Positions 49,887 through 64,000 of a stretch of 64,000 nt of DNA are shown here, piece by piece. Source of the stretch: Rivularia sp. PCC 7116 (lineage in GTDB: Bacteria > Cyanobacteriota > Cyanobacteriia > Cyanobacteriales > Nostocaceae). The translations under genes were made by a program, and so were the position numbers. Every line of letters begins with the position of its first letter. Position 1 is the stretch's first letter. Location of the stretch: assembly GCF_000316665.1 (NCBI RefSeq), contig NC_019678.1:868001-932000 (forward strand), in the 5' to 3' direction. The notes beneath the pieces were generated by a model, which was not told where the DNA came from, ran no database searches, and saw nothing but the letters and a program-made list of their open reading frames with translations.

Positions 49887-51581
49887 TTAATTTGTTGCTA
49901 AAACTTGTAATTCAACTTGTTGAGGAGAATAATCGGAACCGAGCTTTTGGGCACAAAAACCGACATCCCGTACCTTTTGGGGCTGTATAGTTTTTCCCCA
50001 ATCCAAAGGAGTTGCGGTATATATACCTTTGAATTCTTTGAAATTAGCATTCCAAGAATTTTTTATTTTAGCTTGGTTCATATTGAATTTAAGCTGCCAA
50101 TTTTGAACTGATTGGTTGGTATTATTAATTATTTTCATGCTAGTACAAAAACCCGTTTGCCAATCGGAATAAACTTCAGTAGTAACTCGTAATCCTGCTT
50201 CGGCTACAATTGCGGCATTAGTATCTGGAATTCGCGCTTGCGGTTTTTGTGGTTGTGCAACTGTTGCCGGAGCCATGCGAGGTAATTTAACTGGAAGTAG
50301 TTGAGAAATTAATTGTTGTTTGGGTATATCAACACTTTTCCAATCATCCAAGAGAACACCTCCCGTATCTTCACTATTGGGATTCCAACTCCAAACAGCG
50401 AAACTTAGTTTTTTCTTCTTAATATATTTAATTAACTTACTAAACCAAATAGCTTCTTTCTCATCAATTAAACGCCCGCCAAATTCTCCGATCAAAATAG
50501 GAGCGCGATTTTGACTGGAAATATAATGAAAGCCTATTTGCCAGCGATCGAGGAGATTTTGGGGAAATTTCTTGTCAGAGAAATAAGGCATGTCATACAC
50601 CCCAGTTCCGTACTCATGAGGAGAATAAACTAGCTTATTTCGCTGTGATAAACGTACCGGATAGCGCAATACACCTTCTAAATTACCTCCTTGCCAATGG
50701 TGAGCTAATTTTTGTCCCGGAACATTATTTTCTACTCCTTCAACAACAATTAACCAATTAGGATTTATCTTACCAATGGCATTACCTGCGCGTTCTGCGG
50801 CTAACCTCCAATCGGTAGCTAAATCGTTGGTACCCCAACTAGCTTTACCATGAGGTTCATTTTTTAAATCTGCACCGATGATGTTGGTTTGATTTTTATA
50901 TCTTTGAGCTAACTGCAACCAGGTATTTATCCAATCTGCTTCGGAATAGCCATCTCCATACCATAATTCTGGAATCCGCTTATTATTGAGACGATGGGAG
51001 TCCAACAAAATCAATAATCCTTGACGTTGTGCTTCCTCAACGACTGCATCCATTACTTCTATAGGGGTTTTACCTTCGAGTTCTCGATTGCTACCAATAG
51101 TGAAATCAACGCCACTAATTTCAGATGAGCGCAGTGTTTCTACAGAATATGGCAGACGAATCATGTTGTAACCCAAGCTCCTGATTTGGGCGAGCATCTC
51201 CTTATAATCTCGCTTCCATAAACCGTGGGGAGTATGGGTTTCTGTTTCCATACCAAACCAGTTGACTCCTTGGAGTAATACCCTAGCTCCTTTGGCATCA
51301 ATAATTTTTGCTCCACGAGTTGAAAGTGGTAACTGCATAGTCGTTGCTGCTCTAGCCAGATTGACTTGTCCAGATAACGTGTTAATAAAATTACTATTCA
51401 AGCAAAATAATAAGCTGATAAGAAATATCAGTATTTTCTTGTAGGATTTGATTTGTGAAAATTTATTTTTTTTAAATCTTTTTTTCTTTTTATAAAAATA
51501 TTTTCGATAAAACATTTCAAGGAAGATTATCCGCCATTGTTGAAAGATATTATCTAAAAATAAAAAATTATAATTACGCAT
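49887..51581 (-). CDS. GH5-family endoglucanase with C-terminal CBM2 domain
   Basis: 564 residues in the longest frame. The first 48 residues are Lys-rich and may not be translated; Met23 (51515) is an alternative start. A signal sequence follows (about 49-78, ending LARA). The GH5 catalytic domain (about 82-420) has the acid/base Glu242 in LKNEPHG and the nucleophile Glu366 in LIGEFGG, together with SPHEYG (320-325). A Pro-rich linker leads to a CBM2-like cellulose-binding domain (about 465-564; VYSDWQTGFCTSMKIINNT, NSWNA). The enzyme is secreted and cuts beta-1,4-glucans. It is near, though not in, the cellulose-synthesis cluster that starts 5 kb downstream. Confidence 0.9.
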   Translation of the reverse strand: MRNYNFLFLDNIFQQWRIIFLEMFYRKYFYKKKKRFKKNKFSQIKSYKKILIFLISLLFCLNSNFINTLSGQVNLARAATTMQLPLSTRGAKIIDAKGARVLLQGVNWFGMETETHTPHGLWKRDYKEMLAQIRSLGYNMIRLPYSVETLRSSEISGVDFTIGSNRELEGKTPIEVMDAVVEEAQRQGLLILLDSHRLNNKRIPELWYGDGYSEADWINTWLQLAQRYKNQTNIIGADLKNEPHGKASWGTNDLATDWRLAAERAGNAIGKINPNWLIVVEGVENNVPGQKLAHHWQGGNLEGVLRYPVRLSQRNKLVYSPHEYGTGVYDMPYFSDKKFPQNLLDRWQIGFHYISSQNRAPILIGEFGGRLIDEKEAIWFSKLIKYIKKKKLSFAVWSWNPNSEDTGGVLLDDWKSVDIPKQQLISQLLPVKLPRMAPATVAQPQKPQARIPDTNAAIVAEAGLRVTTEVYSDWQTGFCTSMKIINNTNQSVQNWQLKFNMNQAKIKNSWNANFKEFKGIYTATPLDWGKTIQPQKVRDVGFCAQKLGSDYSPQQVELQVLATN

Positions 51582-52031: not shown

Positions 52032-52916
52032 ATGCAGCAAGTGAATCCATCTGCCGTTTTTGATTCAATAACTGAACTTTTAAATATGTCTCTATCTGCT
52101 TTAACCAAATTTATTTTGCCTCCAGTTTTAGCTTCTGCGGCTGTTTTTTCGGCTATGACAGTACCGCTAGCTTTAATAGGGGATAAACAAATTAATATAA
52201 ACTTTCAAGAAGAAACACTTTTCTTCGGTAAACTAAGAGATGTTGCTTTGCCTTATGTAGTAGTGGCGACTGGACTGAGTTTAGGGGCTGGAATTTCAGC
52301 TATTGCTATTAGTGGATGGCGTAAATCTTCTCGTAAATCAACAGAGATCGAAGGGCAAATATCGCAATTAGAACAGCAATTACAGCAGAAAGAGGAATTA
52401 CTTAAAGAATTTAAACTTTCAGAAACTCGACTGCAAGTTTCTGGATTGAATAATTTCTTGGATGAACAAGCGTCATCGACCGCAAGCAAAGGTTATCCGA
52501 CTTTAAACCCTAGAAGCCTATCTCAACAATTTACAGAGCAAACTGTATCCCCAACATATCAAAAACCAGTAGAAAATTATTCGCAACAGCAGCCTGAAGC
52601 TAACATCAAAGATACAACTTCAGCAAATGCAGCATCTGCATTTGCTTCTGCCCAAAACTTTCTTGGATACGCTCAATCAAATAATAATATCAAGAAGGAA
52701 ATTGCTCACATATCTCAAAAAAATCAAACCAGTATAAAGCCAGCAGAATTTGAGCAATTACAAGCACAACTTAGAGATATGATGCTACAAATGCAAGCAA
52801 TGCAGAATAACCTTGCGCCAACTTCTGAACCTATAAATACTGTTAGCAAGCAAGAAGAGGAAAAGATTAGTATTCATTACGATACTTACAAACCTCAGCA
52901 AGTTCAATTGGGTTAA
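52032..52916 (+). CDS. Membrane protein with coiled coil, unknown function
   Basis: 294 residues. Two hydrophobic segments are visible (about 25-48 and 72-95), followed by a Gln/Glu-rich coiled coil (about 100-130; QISQLEQQLQQKEELLKEF), a Ser/Gln-rich low-complexity region and a second Gln/Met-rich helix (QLQAQLRDMMLQMQAMQ, about 245-265). It lacks a recognised enzyme domain. The plan, two short helices with a long cytoplasmic or periplasmic tail, would suit a scaffold. A later Met at residue 19 could also be the start. I do not recognise the family. Confidence 0.75.
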   Translation: MQQVNPSAVFDSITELLNMSLSALTKFILPPVLASAAVFSAMTVPLALIGDKQININFQEETLFFGKLRDVALPYVVVATGLSLGAGISAIAISGWRKSSRKSTEIEGQISQLEQQLQQKEELLKEFKLSETRLQVSGLNNFLDEQASSTASKGYPTLNPRSLSQQFTEQTVSPTYQKPVENYSQQQPEANIKDTTSANAASAFASAQNFLGYAQSNNNIKKEIAHISQKNQTSIKPAEFEQLQAQLRDMMLQMQAMQNNLAPTSEPINTVSKQEEEKISIHYDTYKPQQVQLG

Positions 52917-53792: not shown

Positions 53793-54566
53793 TTACCTTA
53801 AAAACTCCGAACTTGAAATAGGAATGTTAGTTTGGTGAGATTTGGCTAATGGAGGTAAAGTGACTGTGGAATCTTCCGATTGTGCTTTGAGTTGGTATCT
53901 AATCCCCCAGCCATCATTAAAATCTTCGGGTTCTGGACGAGGTGATGCTGTTTTGCCTATAGGTAAGCCTATAGAGCGATACTGGCTTGTTTGTACGTAT
54001 TTTTCACCTTCATTCGTAAATCGAAGGGATTTTCCTTCCAGGTTTTGTTGAAAATTTTGGTTGTCTGAAGATGGTAGTTGAGCTACAGGATTGAAAGTCG
54101 CAATAAAAGTAACTTCATTTTCAGGGAGCAAATTTTTGTAATCTTTATTTAGCTGCCATACTTCTTGAAAATTACCGTTAGAAGCTACCTGCCAAAGATT
54201 TAAGTCAGCTTCCCATTTTCCCTGTTTGACTTCTACGATTTGGCGAGCCAAAATTGAACGGTTTATATTTTCATTATTATCATCAACGATCTGTTCTGCA
54301 TTTGTAGTCGTAGTAGGTCGCAAATAGCGAACTGCTGTAATCGCAATGCGGCTAGATTCGGGTAAGTTTGTACTGCCGACAACCTTGTATAGTCCTTTGC
54401 CATCTTCTCTCTGTATGCCTTGTATTTCTAGCTGTACATTATTTTGCGATTTATTTGAGCAGCCAGAACCGGCTAATAAAACAATACTAGAAGCGATTAC
54501 AGCCTGGATTGCTAAAGGTTTTTTAGTTAAAGGGCGAATTAAAAATCTTAAATGTTGCTGTTTCAT
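53793..54566 (-). CDS. Predicted lipoprotein of unknown function
   Basis: 257 residues. A basic N-tail (KQQHLRFLIRPLTKKP), a hydrophobic core and VLLAGSGC with Cys36 give a lipoprotein-type signal, although the residue three before Cys is Gly and not Leu. The mature part is beta-rich and polar (VQLEIQGIQREDGKGLYKVVGSTNLPESSRI, an Ig-like start, then Trp-rich strands WEADLNLWQV). I do not recognise a family. It is divergent from the outer-membrane barrel gene at 54782, so a link to the exopolysaccharide cluster is possible but not shown. Confidence 0.75.
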   Translation of the reverse strand: MKQQHLRFLIRPLTKKPLAIQAVIASSIVLLAGSGCSNKSQNNVQLEIQGIQREDGKGLYKVVGSTNLPESSRIAITAVRYLRPTTTTNAEQIVDDNNENINRSILARQIVEVKQGKWEADLNLWQVASNGNFQEVWQLNKDYKNLLPENEVTFIATFNPVAQLPSSDNQNFQQNLEGKSLRFTNEGEKYVQTSQYRSIGLPIGKTASPRPEPEDFNDGWGIRYQLKAQSEDSTVTLPPLAKSHQTNIPISSSEFLR

Positions 54567-54781
54567 AAAATTGGTGTTAATAAAAGCAGATTAAATCTGT
54601 AATTTCCGCATTTTTATTTATTTTGCCCAAAATTATGCTCAATTTGAGTAACTTTACGAACTCTTATTGTAATTTTACTGGCTTTGCAAAGTACGTATTA
54701 TCCCGTCGATGATATGAATTTTTTTTGTTAAAGTGGCGACATTATACAACGCAAATATTTACTTATACATTAACTGGGGTA
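54567..54781. promoter_or_regulatory. Divergent promoter region of the exopolysaccharide cluster
   Basis: 215 bp between the lipoprotein (minus) and barrel (plus) genes. Promoters in both directions are expected. Sequence is AT-rich; no operator recognised. Confidence 0.45.
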
Positions 54782-56677
54782 ATGAAACCTAAAATACTAA
54801 AGGGTGAAAAACATATTTTGATCAAAGAATTCCACAAGTATAAACCTTGTAAGCTGTTCTGTGCCGCTTCGATCTCAATCTTAGGTACTTTTGGTGTCAG
54901 CAATAGTTCGCAAGCTCAAACAACATATCTTCAGCCACAAATTAATCGGACTTCGCATTCGCAAAAGTTGTTGAGAGTACCGGAATCTTCCATACCTAAA
55001 GGAAGAACAAAACTTCGATTGCAAGCAGTTCCGCCACCACCCAACATTTCTAATATTGGTGCTACTTTACCTACTCAAAAAATAGAACAGTATTTACCCC
55101 TAGATAATATAAAGCAGTTAGAGAATAATTTTATCCAGGAACAGATAAGTGGTAAAACTAAACGTTCGATTGAGCAATCCATAGCGATAAAGAGGGAAGA
55201 AAAAGCTATAGGTGGTCCGCGAACAGGGATTTACGAAGGTAGGTTAAGGAGCGCTCAAGCTGTTCCATTGCCAGCACCACCGGGCAGCAGTTTGGAATTT
55301 ACTTCCCCTAACTTTAATTCCCAAACCACTGTGACTCCTTTGCCACCACTTCCGGGAACAAGTCCACAGCAAAAATTGGATGCAAATAATGCACCAACAT
55401 TTAATCAATTACTAAATTCTAGAACTAGAAACTCTGGAATATACCCTAAATCTGTTGCGACTAATAATGCACCAACATTTGAACAAATGCTTGATGCTTA
55501 CCGGATGAAACAACCGTCAGTTTCTGCAACTTCAACACCTACTTTTAATACGCTGCTTAACTCTCAAGGAGGAATGCGTCCGTCTACTCCTCTGACTCCA
55601 CAGCAATATTCACCACCAGCACCGTTAAAAAGATCGCAGGCACCGCTTGTTCCCCAAAATGATAATCAATTGAACCCCTTGAGAACTAGTGCGGCTTTAA
55701 GAGAGCCATCTTTAAGGGTGGAAGGTGTTTATGTCACTCAAGGAGACGATACTTCCGCAAGAGCTAGACTTACCGGAGTTTATCCCCTTACTCCTCAAGT
55801 GTTGTTTGGTGGAACTTTAGATTTGACTAGTGAGGGTAGTTCATTTGATGATTCCCGACGAGAAGGTTTGAATATCAACGAACTGTATTTAGCAACATCT
55901 TTAACGGGATTACCTAATTTACGGTTTGCAGTTGGTCAGTTAGATTTAACCTCTTATTTTGACCGCAACAGTTTTGCTAAAGATGGAGCCAGCCAATTTT
56001 TTAATCCAGTCTTTCAAACGAATCCAGCCCTGGCATCGACAGGAATCGGTTCAAAGCCTGGACTATTAGTTAATTGGAGCGTGACCGATAATATAGATGC
56101 TAAAGCTGCTGTTTTCTCATCCTCTGATGCTTTGAGCGAATTTAGTTTGGATGCGTTCGCTGGTGAAATCGGAGTTCGTTACGGTAATGCGATTATTCGC
56201 GGTACTTACAGTACTGCAAGAGATGCCGGAAACCGCGATACTTTTCCTCAAAGCTTTCAAATTGATCGCGGGAATGGTGAGTTTGGAGTTTTGGAAGACG
56301 ATCGCGAAGAAGCATACGGTATAAATGCTGAAGTTTTTATTCCTGAAATGAAATTAGGTCTATTCGGACGTTATGGTCGTTATGAAAATAGAGATTTAGG
56401 AGAAGGCGCGGATACGTATGTTTTCGGAGCTAGTTTCTTAGATTTATTTACCCCTGACGATAGATTGGGATTAGCTTATGGGCGGGCTTTATCAAACGAA
56501 GATGAGCGTGAAGGAAAGCAATTAGATGTATTAGAGCTTTACTACGATTTTCAGTTTCTTCCTAACTTAAGATTAGGTTTTTCCGTTCAGGGAAGAGACG
56601 ACTTTAACGAAACAGTTCTTGGTGTGAGAGTTAAATCAGACTTTGATGTAACTCCAAGGGGGAGATTTGGTAGATGA
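54782..56677 (+). CDS. Outer-membrane beta-barrel protein, possible BcsC-barrel counterpart
   Basis: 631 residues from the ATG at 54782; the frame opens 19 codons earlier only through a TTG. A signal peptide ends near SQAQ (about residue 47). Residues about 50-310 are a Pro/Ser/Asn-rich stalk with three copies of an APTFxQLL-type repeat (APTFNQLLNS, APTFEQMLDA, TPTFNTLLNS). The last 300 residues are alternating beta strands that look like an OprB/carbohydrate-porin barrel (LELYYDFQFLPNLRLGFSVQG near the end), without an SLH domain. Its stop overlaps the next gene by four bases (ATGA). Next to a BcsC-like TPR gene, it may be the export pore of a split BcsC. This is inference. Confidence 0.75.
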   Translation: MKPKILKGEKHILIKEFHKYKPCKLFCAASISILGTFGVSNSSQAQTTYLQPQINRTSHSQKLLRVPESSIPKGRTKLRLQAVPPPPNISNIGATLPTQKIEQYLPLDNIKQLENNFIQEQISGKTKRSIEQSIAIKREEKAIGGPRTGIYEGRLRSAQAVPLPAPPGSSLEFTSPNFNSQTTVTPLPPLPGTSPQQKLDANNAPTFNQLLNSRTRNSGIYPKSVATNNAPTFEQMLDAYRMKQPSVSATSTPTFNTLLNSQGGMRPSTPLTPQQYSPPAPLKRSQAPLVPQNDNQLNPLRTSAALREPSLRVEGVYVTQGDDTSARARLTGVYPLTPQVLFGGTLDLTSEGSSFDDSRREGLNINELYLATSLTGLPNLRFAVGQLDLTSYFDRNSFAKDGASQFFNPVFQTNPALASTGIGSKPGLLVNWSVTDNIDAKAAVFSSSDALSEFSLDAFAGEIGVRYGNAIIRGTYSTARDAGNRDTFPQSFQIDRGNGEFGVLEDDREEAYGINAEVFIPEMKLGLFGRYGRYENRDLGEGADTYVFGASFLDLFTPDDRLGLAYGRALSNEDEREGKQLDVLELYYDFQFLPNLRLGFSVQGRDDFNETVLGVRVKSDFDVTPRGRFGR

Positions 56678-59070
56678 ATCACAAATCAAAATTTGACTGG
56701 TATTTGAACCTATTCTATAAAGCAAATTTATGGCAGGAAAAACGCAAAACACAAAGTAACATCATTGTCGGAATTACTTTATTACCTTTTCACTTATTTG
56801 TTTTTACTTGCCCCATAGTACTGGCAACTTTGAATAACATAGAACCAGTACAAGCTCAAAGTGCATCTGGAGCGACCAAACGGGGTTACAGTCTGCTGAA
56901 AAAAGGGTGGGTTGATGATGCCATTAAAGCCTTTAAACAAGCTTTGAGAAGAAATCCACAATCTTTGCAAGCCAAGCTGGGTTTAGCTATTGCTTATAAC
57001 CGCGCCGGACAAATTGAAGAGGCATTTCAAGCTTATCAAGAAGTATTAGCGCAAGATCCTAAAAATCAAGCAGCCTTAAGAATTGTGGGGATGATGGGTA
57101 CTTACCGTCCTGAATGGAATCAACCCGGTATAAAAGCTCTTAACACTTTGCTTGAATTGAATCCTGATGATTTACAAAGTCGTTATTATCGCGCTTTACT
57201 TTATTCCTATCAAGGTCAATTCAGTAAATCTATCGCCGACTTTCAAATAGTTTTGGCGAACAATCCCACCCCAGAAGCAGTAATTGGAGCGGCTCAAACC
57301 TATAGTTACAGCGGCGATTATCAAAAAGCCAAAGAACTATTTAATCGTTATAAAGCCAGTGGAAAACAAATAACAGATTATGCCGCTGTTGCTTATGCTC
57401 TTACCTTACGCAAAACTGGGAATGCTCAAGAAGCCATCGGAATTCTACAAAGACAGCTACAGCGCTCCGACAATTTAGACCAGTTATCTATCAATACTCG
57501 TGCCGAACTCTCACAAGCCTATATTGCCAATAAACAAGAAGCCGAAGCTTTAGCAGTATTAGAACCTTTAGAAAATAGAGAAGAGGCGATTTTACCTTTA
57601 GCTAGGGCGCTGAATGAAATTCGCAAAAATACAGATAATCCTTCCTTGGTAGAAAAAGTAGCTAATCTCTACCGTCAAGCTCTTGCGAACAATCCTAATC
57701 CTTCTAGCAGTTTGCTGCGGGAAATTGCTAATGTCTTTACTGGTTTACCCCAAGGAGAGGAAACAGCATTACAAATTTATAGACGTTTGGCTGCCACTTT
57801 ACCAAACGATAAAAGTTTGATAGCGCGCCAAGTCGCTTTAGAATACAAACTCGGAATGGTTTCTAAGAGCGATTTAAATCGACGGTTAGCGACAACCTTG
57901 CAAAACTTACCTACTGATTCAGCGCAACTACAAAATTTAGCATTAGCATTAGCTGATATAGATGCTCCCTCTCCTCAACTTCTAAGTGCATATCAAAATA
58001 TTCTGCAAACAGGAGTCAACGCACCGTTTTTGAACTTTCGCTTAGCCCAGATGTATTTGCAACTCGAAAATACAATTCAAGCCAGACAGGCTTTAGCTAA
58101 TTATACGGCAACATCTCAAGGTGCCAGTGATATGGCTACACAGTTGCTTGCAGCGGAAATCGAAAGACGCGAAGGGAACTTGGAAGCCAGCGCCGAACGC
58201 TACTTTGCTATCCTTAATAACAATCCCAAGAACGATATAATTGATGGTGCTTTGCGCGGATTAGTAGGGGTAAGAGTCCAGCAGAAACGTTTTGACGAAG
58301 CTTTAGTAGTTTACGAGCAAGTTCTCAAACGTAATCCTCAAGATATTACCGCTCAGTTAGGACGTACCAGCGTTGCCTATCAAGCCAAACGCATTTCTAA
58401 AAACGAAGCTGAATCTGTTTTAGATAATTGGTTAGCAACTCAAAAAGCTACCAATACACCACCAGAACTATATAGCTTAGTAACACAGCTACCTACCGAT
58501 CCCAACCGAGAAGCACTGTATAATTACTTAGTAGAAGTTGACCCTAGTAGTATAAGATTGCAGCAGCGCTTGCTTGAGTCAATAGCTCAACGAAATCGCG
58601 GTGAAGCCCGCTTGCGAATGAAACAATTGATTGCTAGCGCTCCAAATAACGCTAACTCACAACAGAGAGTAGCTTTGCTAGCTAAAGCAGTTGGAGATTT
58701 AGACATGGCTAGTAAAGCTTATGAGAATATTCTCAAACAGGAACCAGACGATATAGACGCTTTAGCTGCTTTGGGAGGAATTCGTTTCGAGCAAAGACGA
58801 TTTGAATCCGCAGAACAAATTTATTCCACAGTGTTGGAACAAAATCCTCAAGATAAAGAAGCACGTCGCGCTTTAGCAGGTTTGAATGCGATTCTTGACA
58901 AACCATTAGCAGCGATGAAAGCCCTAGAACAGCTGCAAATCGAGCAAATTGCCAGCGGTGAAAGAAATCCCGAAATATCCAACCAGATGCAGCAAATACA
59001 AGAAGACTTCCTGCAAAGACGGGGTTTTCAACCACCTTGGGAAAGTTATGAGCGTCGGGGGAAAAGGTAA
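56674..59070 (+). CDS. BcsC-like TPR scaffold protein (periplasmic)
   Basis: 798 residues. A hydrophobic segment at about 26-50 acts as signal or anchor (ending PVQAQS). From about residue 62 onward there are roughly 18-20 TPR units of 34-36 residues, with motifs such as LGLAIAYNRAGQIEEAFQAYQEVLAQDPKN and LGGIRFEQRRFESAEQIYSTVLEQNP. The spacing and length fit the periplasmic TPR superhelix of BcsC, but the C-terminal 16-strand barrel is missing and the protein ends in basic residues (ESYERRGKR). The barrel gene lies directly upstream and overlaps it. The protein could bind the polysaccharide chain and guide it to the pore. Confidence 0.8.
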   Translation: MNHKSKFDWYLNLFYKANLWQEKRKTQSNIIVGITLLPFHLFVFTCPIVLATLNNIEPVQAQSASGATKRGYSLLKKGWVDDAIKAFKQALRRNPQSLQAKLGLAIAYNRAGQIEEAFQAYQEVLAQDPKNQAALRIVGMMGTYRPEWNQPGIKALNTLLELNPDDLQSRYYRALLYSYQGQFSKSIADFQIVLANNPTPEAVIGAAQTYSYSGDYQKAKELFNRYKASGKQITDYAAVAYALTLRKTGNAQEAIGILQRQLQRSDNLDQLSINTRAELSQAYIANKQEAEALAVLEPLENREEAILPLARALNEIRKNTDNPSLVEKVANLYRQALANNPNPSSSLLREIANVFTGLPQGEETALQIYRRLAATLPNDKSLIARQVALEYKLGMVSKSDLNRRLATTLQNLPTDSAQLQNLALALADIDAPSPQLLSAYQNILQTGVNAPFLNFRLAQMYLQLENTIQARQALANYTATSQGASDMATQLLAAEIERREGNLEASAERYFAILNNNPKNDIIDGALRGLVGVRVQQKRFDEALVVYEQVLKRNPQDITAQLGRTSVAYQAKRISKNEAESVLDNWLATQKATNTPPELYSLVTQLPTDPNREALYNYLVEVDPSSIRLQQRLLESIAQRNRGEARLRMKQLIASAPNNANSQQRVALLAKAVGDLDMASKAYENILKQEPDDIDALAALGGIRFEQRRFESAEQIYSTVLEQNPQDKEARRALAGLNAILDKPLAAMKALEQLQIEQIASGERNPEISNQMQQIQEDFLQRRGFQPPWESYERRGKR

Positions 59071-59135
59071 TTGGTAATTGGTAATTGGTAATTTTGATTT
59101 AAACCGCTTGTGCTTTTGGTGTGAGTGGTTTTTTT
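59067..59135 (+). terminator. TTGGTAA repeats and terminator-like hairpin
   Basis: 59067-59093 carries three copies of the GGTAATT heptamer also found at 23853. 59101-59131 forms a 9-bp stem AAACCGCTT / GAGTGGTTT, with two G-U pairs and a 13-nt loop, followed by TTTT. It probably ends the barrel-TPR transcript. Confidence 0.55.
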
Positions 59136-59328
59136 ATGGGGATGGGTAATTGTAATGGGTAATAAACAAGTTTATGTAATTAGTATTTTATTGTAGGGTG
59201 CTGTGACGCTATGAAAAGATTTGAACGTAGCGATAAGATTTATCCGCGTCACGCACCAACCAGTAATTGTGACAATAAAAACTCTTGCTATCGATAATAA
59301 AATCATTCTAAGGATAAAGTAAGAAAAT

Positions 59329-59898
59329 ATGACATTATCACCTCAGTTATCCTCCAACCTTAGTTTAGAAGAATTTTTAAAACTGCCTGAAACTAAGCCT
59401 CATAACGAATATATTGACGGTAAAATCTATCAAAAACCAATGCCACAGGGAGAACACAGTACCTTACAAAGTTTTTTGGTAACTAACATTAATAAAATTG
59501 GTCAACCACAAAAGTTGGCTTACGCATTTCCAGAATTACGCTGCACATTTTCTGGAAGGTCATTAGTCCCAGACATTGCTGTTTTTAAATGGTCGCGTAT
59601 TCCTTTGCTTCCTAATGGGAGAATTGCCAATCAATTTGAAATTCCTCCCGATTGGACAATTGAAATTCTTTCTCCTAAACAATCTCCCAACCGAGTTATT
59701 CGTAACATCATATTTTCGATGCAAAATGGTACTAAATTAGGTTGGTTTCTTGACTCTGAAGATGAATCTATAATGGTTTTTCAACCCAATCAAGTACCGG
59801 AAATAAAACAAGGAAAAGATGTTTTCCCTGTATTGGATGTATTGGAAGGTTGGAATTTGTCGGTAGCGGATATTTTTGATTGTTTGAATTTTGGTTGA
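59329..59898 (+). CDS. Uma2-family (DUF820) endonuclease-like protein
   Basis: 189 residues with the PD-(D/E)xK-type fold common in cyanobacteria. Family motifs: LSLEEFLKLPETKPHNEYIDGKI at the start, LVPDIAVFKW in the middle, and WTIEILSPKQSPNRV, with Asp and Glu-x-Lys forming the predicted metal site. These genes occur in tens of copies per genome, and their function is unknown; they are often next to mobile or decayed DNA. Here it interrupts the cellulose cluster. Confidence 0.88.
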   Translation: MTLSPQLSSNLSLEEFLKLPETKPHNEYIDGKIYQKPMPQGEHSTLQSFLVTNINKIGQPQKLAYAFPELRCTFSGRSLVPDIAVFKWSRIPLLPNGRIANQFEIPPDWTIEILSPKQSPNRVIRNIIFSMQNGTKLGWFLDSEDESIMVFQPNQVPEIKQGKDVFPVLDVLEGWNLSVADIFDCLNFG

Positions 59899-59905
59899 GA
59901 ATTAA

Positions 59906-60286
59906 ATACACTATGTACAAATCTTGTGGTATTTACACTTACGCGCTTTAGCTTACAAAGCACTCAATCAACCAGATAAAGCAAAAACTGACCTTGCTAA
60001 TGCAGTTAAATTAGCGAAACCAAAATATGAAGAAAATCCTCAAGACTGGCAAAATACTTTAAATTTAGCTGTTTATTACTTAGCCTTTGATGATATTTCC
60101 ACTGCAAAACAATTGTATGAATTCGCGATATCTCAAGATGTTTTACAAGGATATATCGACATGGCTATGCGCGATTTAGATGATTTTTTAACAGTTTTTC
60201 CCAATCATACAGAAGCACAAGCTATGCGAATGTTATTAGATGAACCTATCCCACTAATAACATTCTTTGAACCCAGATATGAATAG
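59906..60286 (+). pseudogene. TPR-protein remnant lacking its 5' part
   Basis: About 126 codons open from 59906, just after a stop codon in the same frame; the only early start is a TTG at 59924 without a ribosome binding site. Content is TPR-like (RALAYKALNQPDKAKTDLANAVKLA, LNLAVYYLAFDDISTAKQLYEFA, DLDDFLTVFPNHTEAQAMRML). It reads as the end of a larger TPR gene, cut when the Uma2 gene or flanking DNA arrived. Expression as a small protein cannot be excluded. Confidence 0.6.
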
Positions 60287-60350
60287 TAGCAATTGTTAAT
60301 AGCACTCTCCGTCCTTACCTCCACTCTCCCTTTCATAGGGAGATCCAAGA

Positions 60351-60445
60351 AATAAAATGTCCCACCGTTTTACAAATATTCCGGTCAAAACCTAGATATA
60401 CTGGGGTGTCGCCTTTCAGGCGACACCGACGGGGGACATTTTATT
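60351..60445. mobile_element. 95-bp MITE-like element with perfect 13-bp terminal inverted repeats
   Basis: The ends AATAAAATGTCCC (60351-60363) and GGGACATTTTATT (60433-60445) are perfect inverted repeats. Inside is a second perfect hairpin, GGTGTCGCC / GGCGACACC (60405-60413 and 60419-60427), with a 5-nt loop. No coding capacity. It could be a miniature transposable element or a structured RNA. I see no clear target-site duplication. Confidence 0.6.
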
Positions 60446-60615
60446 ATCTGTAAGTGCCATAAAGAACACCTAGCGAAATCCTCATCCAAACAAATTTTCG
60501 ATAAAGAATCAGTCATTTAGTTAAATATACGGACTACAAAGGGAATATTAATCAGAAGAAGTTTCTCAAATACAACAAAAGAGAATTTCTCCTAATTGGC
60601 AACAATTGATGCAAA

Positions 60616-61890
60616 ATGTTCTCAAATATGAACTATCTGACAAAAATAGCCGCTATATGTATAATTTTGGCTTTAAATGGCTGTAGTTGGGGTGATTCAG
60701 CTAATAGTGTTGAAAAACCTGTGAAAAAATCTTGGCAATCATCAACTACGATATCGGTTGTTAATAACGATAGCGTTCGTTTTGTCTCGTCTCTCCCGGA
60801 ATCGACTCCTAACCGAGAGTTATTAGTCGAAAGTTGGGACAGCTATCGTCGTCGGTTTATCCAAAGAGATGGAAGAGTAATCGATTACGAAGCTAGCGAT
60901 CGCTCTACTAGTGAAGGGCAGGCTTATGCAATGCTAAGAGCGGTACTTATCGATGACTCTGCAACTTTTGCTCTAACTTTAAACTGGGGAGAAAATAATT
61001 TACGAAGACTTGAAGACGGTAAACCTGTAGATAATTTATGGGCTTGGAAGTGGGGGCGTAAATCTGATGGTAGCTGGGGTTCTATAGATAATAATTTTGC
61101 TAGCGACGGCGATATAGATGCGATTACTGCTTTGATATTGGCTTCAAGACGGTGGAATCGTCCGGAATACCTAGAATTAGCAAAAACAAAACTGCAAGAT
61201 TTGTGGAAGTATTCAACTGTAGTCGGACAAGACAAACGCTATCTGCTACCTGGCCCCAAAGCTGCATTTGTTAAAGACTCATCGTCCATTATTCTTAATC
61301 CTTCATACTTTGCTCCTTACGCTTTCCGCTTGTTTGCTCAAGTTGACTCCGAACGAGATTGGTTGAGCTTGGTAGATAGTAGCTATGAAGTATTGGAAGA
61401 TTCCAGACATATTAGTGCTGTAAATTTACCTAGTGATTGGGTTGTTCTAGATGCAAAAACGGGAAAATATCGACCTTTGCCTAACGATAGTCTGTTAAGC
61501 AGCGCATATAGCTTTGACGCATATCGGGTTTGGTGGAGAATCGCGCTTGATGCTAGTTGGTTTAATTCAACTCGGGCACGAAATTATCTGGAATCGTCTA
61601 TCGGTCATCCACTCAAATTATGGTCAGAAAAATCAAGTATTCCAGCACGAATAAACCTCGAAGGTGAAGCTTTGGTAAACTACGAAGCTACTTCTCAATA
61701 CGCCATGCTTTATGCAGCAAGTAGGCTGATACAACCATCATTGGCTGAAGAATTATTGGAGAAAAAGCTGCTACCCCGATACCAGCAAGAAGTCTGGGAT
61801 GATAATGAAGCTTATTACACTCAGAATCTAGCTTGGTTAGGGCTGCTATCTCCATCAGCAATCTCTCCAAAACTTTTGCAAAGTAATTAA
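60616..61890 (+). CDS. bcsZ: GH8-family endoglucanase, BcsZ-like, predicted lipoprotein
   Basis: 424 residues. The lipobox LNGC (Cys23) follows a short hydrophobic signal, so the protein should be membrane-anchored. A roughly 45-residue linker leads to the GH8 (alpha/alpha)6 domain. The catalytic acid is Glu100 in TSEGQAYAMLRA and the GH8 Asp is in DGDIDA (about 165-169); the family pattern WAWKWG also appears. BcsZ trims beta-1,4-glucan during cellulose secretion. E. coli BcsZ is about 370 residues and soluble in the periplasm; this one is longer and anchored. It is 153 bp upstream of bcsB on the same strand. A second Met (60628) may be the start. Confidence 0.88.
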   Translation: MFSNMNYLTKIAAICIILALNGCSWGDSANSVEKPVKKSWQSSTTISVVNNDSVRFVSSLPESTPNRELLVESWDSYRRRFIQRDGRVIDYEASDRSTSEGQAYAMLRAVLIDDSATFALTLNWGENNLRRLEDGKPVDNLWAWKWGRKSDGSWGSIDNNFASDGDIDAITALILASRRWNRPEYLELAKTKLQDLWKYSTVVGQDKRYLLPGPKAAFVKDSSSIILNPSYFAPYAFRLFAQVDSERDWLSLVDSSYEVLEDSRHISAVNLPSDWVVLDAKTGKYRPLPNDSLLSSAYSFDAYRVWWRIALDASWFNSTRARNYLESSIGHPLKLWSEKSSIPARINLEGEALVNYEATSQYAMLYAASRLIQPSLAEELLEKKLLPRYQQEVWDDNEAYYTQNLAWLGLLSPSAISPKLLQSN

Positions 61891-62043
61891 GAAGTTGTGG
61901 CATTTTTCTCCAATAAGCGAATAAAATAAATCAGCAATACTTAAGTAGCGAACAAATACTTAAATCCAGTTTTTTCAGTTACAAAATAAACATTTTTAAA
62001 ACATTTTCATACTCGACTTACCTAATAATAAAAAAACTGTGTT

Positions 62044-64000
62044 ATGAAGCATCTATTTAATTTCAAAGTCATTAATAAAGCATTTCTTATCTCTTTTTGT
62101 TTGCTATCGGCTTTGCCAACTGCACAAGCAGCTAGTCAAAATCAACTATCTAATTCTGAAGGGATTTTGGTAGCACGAGCTAGTAGAAGCTCCAAAACTG
62201 CTCAAACTAAATACAATGATAAATACATTTTAGAATTCAATCGCAGTCCGATAGTAGGCAATCGGATGCGTTTAAGAGGAGTCTATTCGGAAGGTCGTTT
62301 GGGTTTCACTCGCCCTCGTGGCTGGGATATAGGTACACTAAAAGCTGAGATTCGCTTTCAACATTCGCCAGCCTTGTTTGCTAATCGCTCTAATTTAACG
62401 GTGCTAGTCAACGATACAGCTGTAGGTAGTATTCCTTTAAATCGCAAACAGTCCCAAGTTGGTCGAGTACTGATAAACATCCCTCCAAAGCTGCTGCAAG
62501 AATATAACGAACTTAAAATTGTAGCTCAACAAAATAATACTTCTGGATGTAGCGACCCCAGCGACCCAACTTTATGGACGGAAATTTTACCAGACTCAAA
62601 ATTAACTTTTAATTACAACCGCAAACCAATTCCCCTCAACTTCAGCAATTACCCCTATCCGTTCTTCGATAACCTGGATTTAGACACCAACCGTATCGTT
62701 TACTTGAAACCCCAAACTACTAATAAATCTTGGTTGGAGGGAGCAGCCCGTTTGCAAGCTTCGTTGGGGAGACAAGCAGAGTTCCGTCCGATAGAAACAG
62801 ATTTAATTTCGGATATCTCTGATGTGTCAGACAATGAAAAATTAGTCATTATCGGTACTCCCGGCGAGCAACCTGCTTTAAAAGATTTGGATCTACCTCG
62901 TAAAATTGCAGGTTCTCAAATCTTAGATTCCAATCAGAACGTAATACCAGAAGACACGGGAGTATTAATCCTAACTACTACTAAAAAAGGTAAAGTCCCT
63001 GTCTTGGTTGCCACTGGAAATGGGCCAAAAGGAGTAGCTAAAGCTGCACAATTTTTAGCACAGCCTTCTTCGCGGAGAATGGGCACGGATCGAATTGTTT
63101 TTGTCAAAAAAATAGAAGAAGCTACTACACCAGGGAAAAGAGAATGGCCCCGTTATTTACCAGAGTCAAGTAACTTTGAACTGAGCGAGATTAAAACTCA
63201 ATTTAACGGTGATGCTTTTAAAGATGTCAGCGTTCGTGGCTCTGCGGCTCCCCCAATTGAAATAGACTTCCGTGCTTTACCGGATGACAGATTTCTACGC
63301 GGTAGTTCGATGAATCTGGTTTACAGCTACGGACCACAAATGAATCCTAGAACCTCTGCTGTAGAAGTATTGCTGGATGGGGTTTTCATTGGTGGAGCGC
63401 GCCTAGATTCAGACCAAGGGGCAATGCGTAAAAACCTCAAAGTAGATTTACCGGCAAAATTGGTCAAGCCTGACTCTAAACTTCAAGTCTTTTTCCGGAT
63501 GAATCCCAAAGAGCCGTTTGATAAAACTAACTGTATCAGCCCACCAGACCAACAGCTTACAGGTACCGTTCATTCCGACACCAGTTTTGATTTAAAACGG
63601 GAAAATTCCGTAGAGCTACCGAATCTTAAATTAATGCAGTATGGCTTCCCCTTTGCTGCACCTCAAGATTTATCTGAAACAGCAATTGTACTTCCACAAA
63701 AGCCTAGCAGTACGGATATATTGACAATGCTTGCTTTCAGCGAACGTTTGGGAAGATTGAGTCGTGCTGATGCGGTCAAGTTAGATGTATATACTCCGAA
63801 TACCTTAACTCCCGAAGTACGTAAAAACGAACACTTAGTCGGGATTGGAACGCGAGATGAGTTCCCCTTACCCAATGTATTTAAATCTCCAGGCTTTAAC
63901 TTAGCAAAATCATTCGGACGGGGTTCAGCCCAAGCAAGCGTTACAGTTCCCCAAGATACTCAGGGGATGATTAAACAGGTACTCAATGAGAATGGCGATC
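62044..64000 (+). CDS. bcsB: Cellulose synthase regulatory subunit BcsB (3' part beyond window)
   Basis: 652 codons are visible with no stop. A signal peptide covers about residues 1-31 (ends TAQAAS). The two carbohydrate-binding/flavodoxin-like pairs of BcsB follow. The hallmark SGCSDPSDPTLWTEI lies at about 176-190, and LVIIGTPGEQPALKDLDLP marks the flavodoxin-like part. BcsB is periplasmic with a C-terminal anchor (outside the window) and completes the catalytic BcsA-BcsB complex in the inner membrane. bcsA is not in this window; it should lie downstream. Confidence 0.9.
   Translation, partial: MKHLFNFKVINKAFLISFCLLSALPTAQAASQNQLSNSEGILVARASRSSKTAQTKYNDKYILEFNRSPIVGNRMRLRGVYSEGRLGFTRPRGWDIGTLKAEIRFQHSPALFANRSNLTVLVNDTAVGSIPLNRKQSQVGRVLINIPPKLLQEYNELKIVAQQNNTSGCSDPSDPTLWTEILPDSKLTFNYNRKPIPLNFSNYPYPFFDNLDLDTNRIVYLKPQTTNKSWLEGAARLQASLGRQAEFRPIETDLISDISDVSDNEKLVIIGTPGEQPALKDLDLPRKIAGSQILDSNQNVIPEDTGVLILTTTKKGKVPVLVATGNGPKGVAKAAQFLAQPSSRRMGTDRIVFVKKIEEATTPGKREWPRYLPESSNFELSEIKTQFNGDAFKDVSVRGSAAPPIEIDFRALPDDRFLRGSSMNLVYSYGPQMNPRTSAVEVLLDGVFIGGARLDSDQGAMRKNLKVDLPAKLVKPDSKLQVFFRMNPKEPFDKTNCISPPDQQLTGTVHSDTSFDLKRENSVELPNLKLMQYGFPFAAPQDLSETAIVLPQKPSSTDILTMLAFSERLGRLSRADAVKLDVYTPNTLTPEVRKNEHLVGIGTRDEFPLPNVFKSPGFNLAKSFGRGSAQASVTVPQDTQGMIKQVLNENGD

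Follow-up and report, generated by a model that had tools for sequence, protein, structure and literature searches.

The DNA considered here is a 64-kb stretch (the window) of the 8.73-Mb genome of the cyanobacterium Rivularia sp. PCC 7116 (assembly GCF_000316665.1, contig NC_019678.1, positions 868001-932000), which ends within a cluster of cellulose genes. In this cluster a gene for an outer-membrane barrel protein is followed by one for a tetratricopeptide repeat (TPR) protein, a Uma2 gene with a short TPR fragment, a glycoside hydrolase family 8 (GH8) gene, bcsB and, past the window edge, bcsA, which a preliminary description of the window had proposed to look for on that side and which passes TIGR03030 (Table 1). 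The same description had read the first two genes as a BcsC separated into its two parts and reversed in order; they are indeed separate open reading frames, barrel first, and the reported four-base overlap of the signal-peptide barrel gene with the TPR gene is an ATGA sequence (signal peptides were called by eye and lipobox motifs, throughout, by a crude rule). The barrel reading frame starts at ATG 54782, with an in-frame TTG at 54725 as a possible alternative. GH8 and BcsB genes do come after the TPR gene, as had been described, except that in this copy the Uma2 gene and the TPR fragment intervene before GH8. Most likely, the barrel and TPR proteins constitute a two-protein outer-membrane module for cellulose export in cyanobacteria with BcsB-type clusters, with the pore and scaffold functions of BcsC divided between two chains.

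Table 1. Features of the Rivularia cellulose cluster and its surroundings (positions within the window, except for bcsA)
Feature	Position	Strand	Basis
Gene for the outer-membrane barrel protein (631 aa), with a signal peptide (by eye), a Pro-rich stalk and a 16-strand barrel	54782-56677	+	Open reading frame, Pfam, AlphaFold2
Modelled barrel domain (350 aa), its 16 long strands spanning model residues 29-341	55625-56674	+	AlphaFold2 (pLDDT 88.2, pTM 0.84)
Long, strongly conserved loop joining strands 5 and 6 (DRNSFAKDG..FNPVFQTNPAL)	55946-56050	+	Invariant alignment columns placed on the model
ATGA shared by the end of the barrel gene and the start of the TPR gene	56674-56677	+	Sequence
TPR scaffold protein of 798 aa with a signal peptide (by eye) and ~20 helix pairs	56674-59070	+	Pfam, AlphaFold2
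RGFQPxWE-like motif near the TPR protein C-terminus, candidate docking peptide	59020-59043	+	Pattern count, alignment
Uma2 gene with a short TPR fragment, lying after the TPR gene and before GH8	59329-60286		
BcsZ-like endoglucanase of family GH8, a predicted lipoprotein (crude rule)	60616-61890	+	Pfam, NCBIfam
BcsB, 766 aa in full, continues past window end	62044-64000	+	Pfam
bcsA with PilZ domain, 878 aa, 462 bases right of window	L004:12463-15099		TIGR03030
Small secreted protein, probable lipoprotein, 257 aa, no named family; divergent to barrel gene	53793-54566	-	
Protein with membrane and coiled-coil parts (by eye), without a named family	52032-52916	+	Profile search
GH5 cellulase with CBM2, adjoins cluster	49887-51581	-	Pfam

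A second, paralogous cluster in the Rivularia genome (C1:6.82 Mb) holds genes for a barrel, a TPR protein (also 798 aa), GH8, BcsB and BcsA in identical order and repeats the 4-base ATGA overlap, which argues that the arrangement is more than chance; it is without the Uma2/TPR-fragment insert. The barrels of the two copies are 65% and the TPR proteins 55% identical. A third cellulose-synthase-like gene in this genome stands alone.

The occurrence of the barrel among genomes coincides with that of BcsB. In a class-level sample of 194 genomes (sample 1), searched with a barrel model built from the two Rivularia barrels alone (A1, threshold E 1e-20), the barrel is found in 54 genomes belonging to 11 families and 38 of 110 genera, and a strong BcsB is found in the same 54, with no discordant genome. 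The other 140 have no barrel at this threshold and no strong BcsB, but 16 of them have a weak one, PF03170 having matched 70 genomes in all; the divide between strong and weak, with the best weak match at 9.6e-18, was set after the gap was visible. An order-level sample of 195 genomes (sample 2), searched with barrel model A3 and BcsB at E 1e-20 for each, has the barrel and BcsB in an identical set of 19, 15 of which are not in sample 1. Of ten genomes listed for Rivularia's own family, two carry barrel and BcsB and eight neither, and at E 1e-90 the TPR family is found in the same 54 genomes of sample 1, from which its model was built. All barrel genomes (54/54 and 19/19) therefore have a strong BcsB, which speaks against a barrel/TPR pair recurring mostly away from cellulose genes and supports the proposal of a distinct cellulose export module in cyanobacteria, the export itself being suggested by the company the genes keep. 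Among the ten weak-BcsB regions that were read, five hold nothing further, four have a faint BcsA-like ORF and one, in the barrel-less genome G005, is a relic in which fragments of TPR, GH8 and BcsB genes follow in order within ~0.8 kb (L235:7829-8542), together with a disrupted coiled-coil gene; relics and no barrel are what would be expected if the entire system had been lost. In the four (L229, L231, L232 and L234), all in small cyanobacterial genomes, a faint BcsB-like protein of ~650 aa lies near the BcsA-like ORF, possibly representing another polymer system.

Gene order was read in two partly overlapping, and so not independent, sets of loci. Set 1 (L068-L147) comprises 80 stretches from sample 1, 71 centred on a barrel and nine on BcsB copies without a nearby barrel; set 2 comprises 80 named GTDB loci, the best 80 of 205 relatives, all of which have cyanobacterial titles. 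Among the named GTDB contigs, the best relative comes from a Rivularia metagenome-assembled genome (99%). The order barrel-TPR-GH8-BcsB-BcsA is present in 44 of the 80 stretches of set 1 and, without GH8, in a further 18, the rest being cut by contig ends or incomplete, and it is exact in 62/80 loci of set 2. The barrel gene precedes the TPR gene in all 68 set 1 loci that hold both, with no reversed pair, the TPR gene follows the barrel gene in 77/80 loci of set 2, and no fused barrel-TPR reading frame was found in 170 loci scanned. The distance between the two is -4 in 27 of 70 set 1 pairs (68 under a stricter TPR score), -1 in two and at most 20 bases in 49, the corresponding counts in set 2 being 50, seven and 66 of 77; two of the remaining set 2 loci, L216 and L220, are cut by a contig end. 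On the question, raised earlier, of whether the pair always occurs with bcsB and bcsZ, all barrel genomes carry bcsB, and 20 of the 65 loci that hold barrel, TPR and BcsB have no GH8 gene, so that the barrel persists even where GH8 is absent from its neighbourhood.

When a cluster has come apart, the barrel and TPR genes are usually still found as a pair, with two exceptions seen. In G162 and G169 barrel-TPR-GH8 lies ~27 kb from a bcsB-bcsA pair; G335 and G264 each have a trio of barrel, TPR and lipoprotein genes apart from bcsB-bcsA, at ~0.73 Mb from the nearest unpartnered bcsB-bcsA in G335; and G246 and G323 have barrel-TPR and lipoprotein-bcsB-bcsA in divergent orientation. The two proteins also diverge together: among 61 loci with all four proteins the correlation of barrel and TPR distances is 0.82, and a partial correlation of 0.505 remains once BcsA and BcsB are accounted for, a value that none of 2000 permutations reached, the other partial correlations being 0.47 for TPR-BcsA, 0.33 for TPR-BcsB, 0.16 for barrel-BcsB and -0.01 for barrel-BcsA. 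This pattern fits a partnership of barrel and TPR protein in which the latter forms the link to the synthase, although uneven rates could contribute.

The resemblance of the barrel to OprB porins, noted in the preliminary description, was borne out: Pfam OprB (PF04966) matches it at E 5.8e-8 (33 bits; cut-off 22.9), and 34 of 60 barrel relatives match OprB at E 0.01. The AlphaFold2 model, made with 60 sequences, predicts 16 long strands and one of three residues, and among the best 50 Foldseek matches it retrieved trimeric-type porins, with OprB (4gey) at the top (TMq 0.63); the rmsd of 6.8 indicates a likeness to OprB at the level of the fold and not a close one. A sequence search of solved structures with the barrel returned nothing. 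Within the Rivularia genome, which has 19 OprB matches, the two cluster barrels (E 4e-10 and 6e-7) are the faintest save for one fragment, the others ranging from E 1.1e-63 to 1.5e-17. They share little with five ordinary OprB porins of the genome and lack the N-terminal part of these, presumably an SLH domain, and differ from them further in being coupled to a TPR gene.

No descent of the barrel from BcsC could be supported. PF05420 (BCSC_C) matches none of 60 barrel domains at E 0.01, hhalign gives a probability of 0.4% against the E. coli BcsC barrel, which amounts to no detectable relation, and BcsC is absent among the best 50 Foldseek matches. Nor was a BCSC_C match found anywhere in the Rivularia genome, with E. 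coli as positive control, so that the complete bcsC-like gene that might have stood elsewhere in the cluster was not encountered. The term split BcsC thus describes the layout well, with two chains and the barrel first, while common descent is not demonstrated and the barrel is OprB-like. The Pro-rich stalk in front of the barrel ranges from 71 to 726 aa (68 proteins), and in L249 and L254 the barrel proteins exceed 1200 aa and have very long N-terminal stalks. Its APTFxQLL repeats had been proposed as a docking region; such repeats exist, in the PTFNQLL form, in four of 69 stalks, namely three closely related loci (both Rivularia copies and a third from the same family) and one weak case, and a lineage-specific feature of so few related loci is unlikely to be a docking region. 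A helix-like ExxLIxQM-type motif occurs in 17/69 stalks against a mean of 0.8 in 200 shuffles (maximum 3), and is not universal.

The structure predictions proposed earlier gave, for the single proteins, the 16-strand barrel (Table 1) and, for the TPR protein, an all-helix solenoid of ~43 helices past the N-terminus (pLDDT 90.6, pTM 0.79). No barrel family appears in the TPR protein among the 25 of 28 Pfam matches listed, and the best 50 Foldseek matches of its model are general TPR solenoids with low TM-scores. Against the TPR part of BcsC hhalign gives 94.7% (E 6.1e-8, 271 columns), although TPR proteins align generally; a search of solved structures with the family listed 9b8a, a cellulose synthase operon protein C, amid many other TPR proteins (E 9.4e-19), and the NCBIfam BcsC model scores 33.4 bits against 858. 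A lipobox is present in 2/71 TPR proteins. Near the C-terminus a pattern RG[FIYL]xxxW[EDQ], mostly RGFQPxWE, is found in 68/68 barrel-linked loci of set 1 and 77/77 of set 2 when counted in the last 45-60 residues with W followed by E, D or Q (the last 12 residues alone gave 25/77); in all, 147 of the 1379 complete reading frames longer than 200 aa in these loci have it. Its R, G, W and E are shared by all 56 aligned TPR proteins. The motif forms the extreme C-terminus (WERY) in most and is followed by ~10 further residues in relatives of the Rivularia protein. Since it sits where BcsC would run into its barrel, it is the best candidate for a peptide that docks on the barrel. In loci with a TPR gene and no barrel this tail is broken up in L140 and L141 and kept in L139.

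Two further genes are likely accessory parts of the system. The small secreted protein encoded next to the barrel gene, which has no convincing Pfam match and no solved relative by sequence, is probably a lipoprotein, as its sequence suggests (lipobox in 10/31 of the family, cysteine C36 invariant in the alignment). Relatives are present in 54/80 set 1 and 66/80 set 2 loci and in 52/194 genomes, all within the 54 with a barrel (G093 and G173 lack it), so that the family tracks the cellulose system even when away from the cluster. The gene for the membrane and coiled-coil protein follows the system less closely, being found in 48/194 genomes, 47 within the 54 and the remaining one being G005.

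Several observations count against an export module of this kind. In L169, the third set 2 locus without a TPR gene, both TPR and GH8 are truly missing from the stretch read and the barrel runs straight into BcsB, and in L256 (G280) no TPR gene lies within ~10 kb downstream of the barrel, though the L255 barrel of the same genome has one. A contig end explains neither case; these two barrels may reflect deletion, an assembly fault or barrels that are free of a scaffold. Conversely, BcsB copies occur with a TPR gene and no barrel in the stretch (L139, L140, L141) and with neither (L142, L145, L146, L248, L253, L260), all of these genomes carrying a barrel elsewhere. The barrel model is only moderately close to solved porins, and its long loop between strands 5 and 6, which is among the most strongly conserved stretches and corresponds in position to the constriction loop of porins, could narrow the pore. 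Finally, the TPR, lipoprotein and coiled-coil models were derived from the same genomes in which they were counted, and related genomes are not independent samples.

Among other explanations, the best placed, though an improbable one, is that the polymer which this BcsA-BcsB makes, and which barrel and TPR protein export, is another glucan or a modified one and not plain cellulose. The GH8 enzyme does not by itself fix the product; it exceeds the Pfam cut-off (E 2.2e-42, 145.8 bits; cut-off 24), scores 165.8 bits on the NCBIfam BcsZ equivalog against 299, and is lipoprotein-like in Rivularia, as by the lipobox rule in 30/51 relatives (L117 has a tandem pair of GH8 genes in one cluster). The synthase, on the other hand, points to cellulose, BcsA scoring above the TIGR03030 cut-off (715.2 bits; cut-off 699.1) and the QxxRW motif being intact in 70/71 aligned BcsA, with a gap in the remaining one; BcsB matches PF03170 at E 3.4e-108 (363 bits; cut-off 21) and stays below the narrower NCBIfam BcsB cut-offs. 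The RxxxR motif of textbook PilZ domains reads RLQRQ in the Rivularia BcsA, and RLxRK or RLxRQ in many relatives, so that binding of cyclic di-GMP may differ from that of the textbook motif.

Slightly less probable still is that the barrel is an uptake porin for cellodextrins freed by GH8 and the GH5-CBM2 enzyme, with the TPR protein as a general scaffold. The OprB family is named for carbohydrate-selective porins and the cellulase adjoins the Rivularia cluster, but relatives of the latter lie near just 11/80 set 1 and 32/80 set 2 loci, barrel and TPR are retained in the loci that lack a neighbouring GH8, the barrel co-diverges with the TPR protein, and the system would be left without a known outer-membrane exporter. 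That the pair is a porin and scaffold of some other function, such as envelope stability, lying beside cellulose genes by chance is very improbable, however common TPR proteins and OprB porins are in these genomes, given the exact genome match in both samples and the mere relics of TPR, GH8, BcsB and coiled-coil genes in the barrel-less G005.

If barrel and TPR protein are an export module, BcsA-BcsB would synthesize the glucan and thread it into the periplasm, the TPR protein would act as a helical guide across it, and the RGFQPxWE-like tail would dock at the periplasmic mouth of the OprB-like barrel, through which the chain would exit; GH8 would trim misplaced chains and the small lipoprotein would probably help to hold or assemble the outer-membrane part. 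We infer physical contact between the two proteins, outward transport and a cellulose substrate from the genetic association and the predicted folds. A more specific account, which we consider somewhat better than an even chance, is that cyanobacteria have evolved an outer-membrane glucan exporter of their own, convergent with BcsC and not derived from it: its pore would be a barrel taken over from sugar porins of the OprB type, the conserved TPR tail would open or align this pore, and the new lipoprotein would be a third subunit.

Comparison with known systems places the pair between several of them. With BcsC it shares a 16-strand barrel, a scaffold of ~20 TPR units and a cluster with bcsA, bcsB and GH8, whereas BcsC is one chain with the TPR part first, and the cyanobacterial system is two chains with the barrel gene first and a barrel that has no BCSC_C match and is unrelated in sequence to that of E. 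coli. In alginate export, where the AlgE barrel has 18 strands, the resemblance is one of layout and the polymer is different. According to the available parts of the sources, scaffold and porin there are separate proteins (PMC9384988, PMC9734138), the repeat scaffold being part of the porin in cellulose, Pel and PNAG systems (PMC9384988), and AlgK, a lipoprotein, is built of 9.5 Sel1-like repeats, unlike the cyanobacterial scaffold with its ~20 TPR-type helix pairs and scarce lipobox. Type III bcs clusters, as excerpts of their descriptions have it, often encode a scaffold-only BcsK (PMC11470070), a barrel-less TPR protein beside bcsA-bcsB (PMC6559018, PMC9012009) for which those portions name no dedicated barrel partner; compared by description, the cyanobacterial scaffold differs in having a coupled one. 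BcsC is encoded by two neighbouring genes in Acidisarcina polymorpha, which the accessible text treats as fragments of one BcsC and a pseudogene (PMC9693552), whereas the cyanobacterial genes are intact and conserved, with the barrel first and of unrelated type. Some alphaproteobacteria are described, in the text at hand, as being without BcsC (PMC7112194).

For cyanobacteria, the portions of a phylum-wide survey that could be consulted report the BcsC_C domain in none of those analysed and set BcsC aside (PMC4594306), and an unconfirmed model in part of a 2025 review, XcsA-HlyD-TolC, has cellulose exported by clusters with an HlyD-like adaptor in place of BcsB (PMC12430437), in contrast to the BcsB, TPR protein and porin-type barrel of the Rivularia type. 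Contrary to the survey, BcsC-type barrels have been reported in five cyanobacteria, among them Anabaena PCC 7120 with alr3754 (PMC4365693, in the section available); PF05420 gave three weak partial matches in the 194 genomes of sample 1, one just above the cut-off, the five strains not being looked up by name. The barrel-TPR pair was not described in the titles and abstract openings retrieved from the open literature, subscription journals being mostly uncovered, so that novelty is unproven. Should the export module be confirmed, it would provide specific candidates for the pore, the guide and a lipoprotein that fill the export gap of BcsB-type cyanobacteria, and as a naturally two-part exporter it would allow scaffold-pore docking to be studied in trans and could aid the secretion of cellulose from engineered cyanobacteria.

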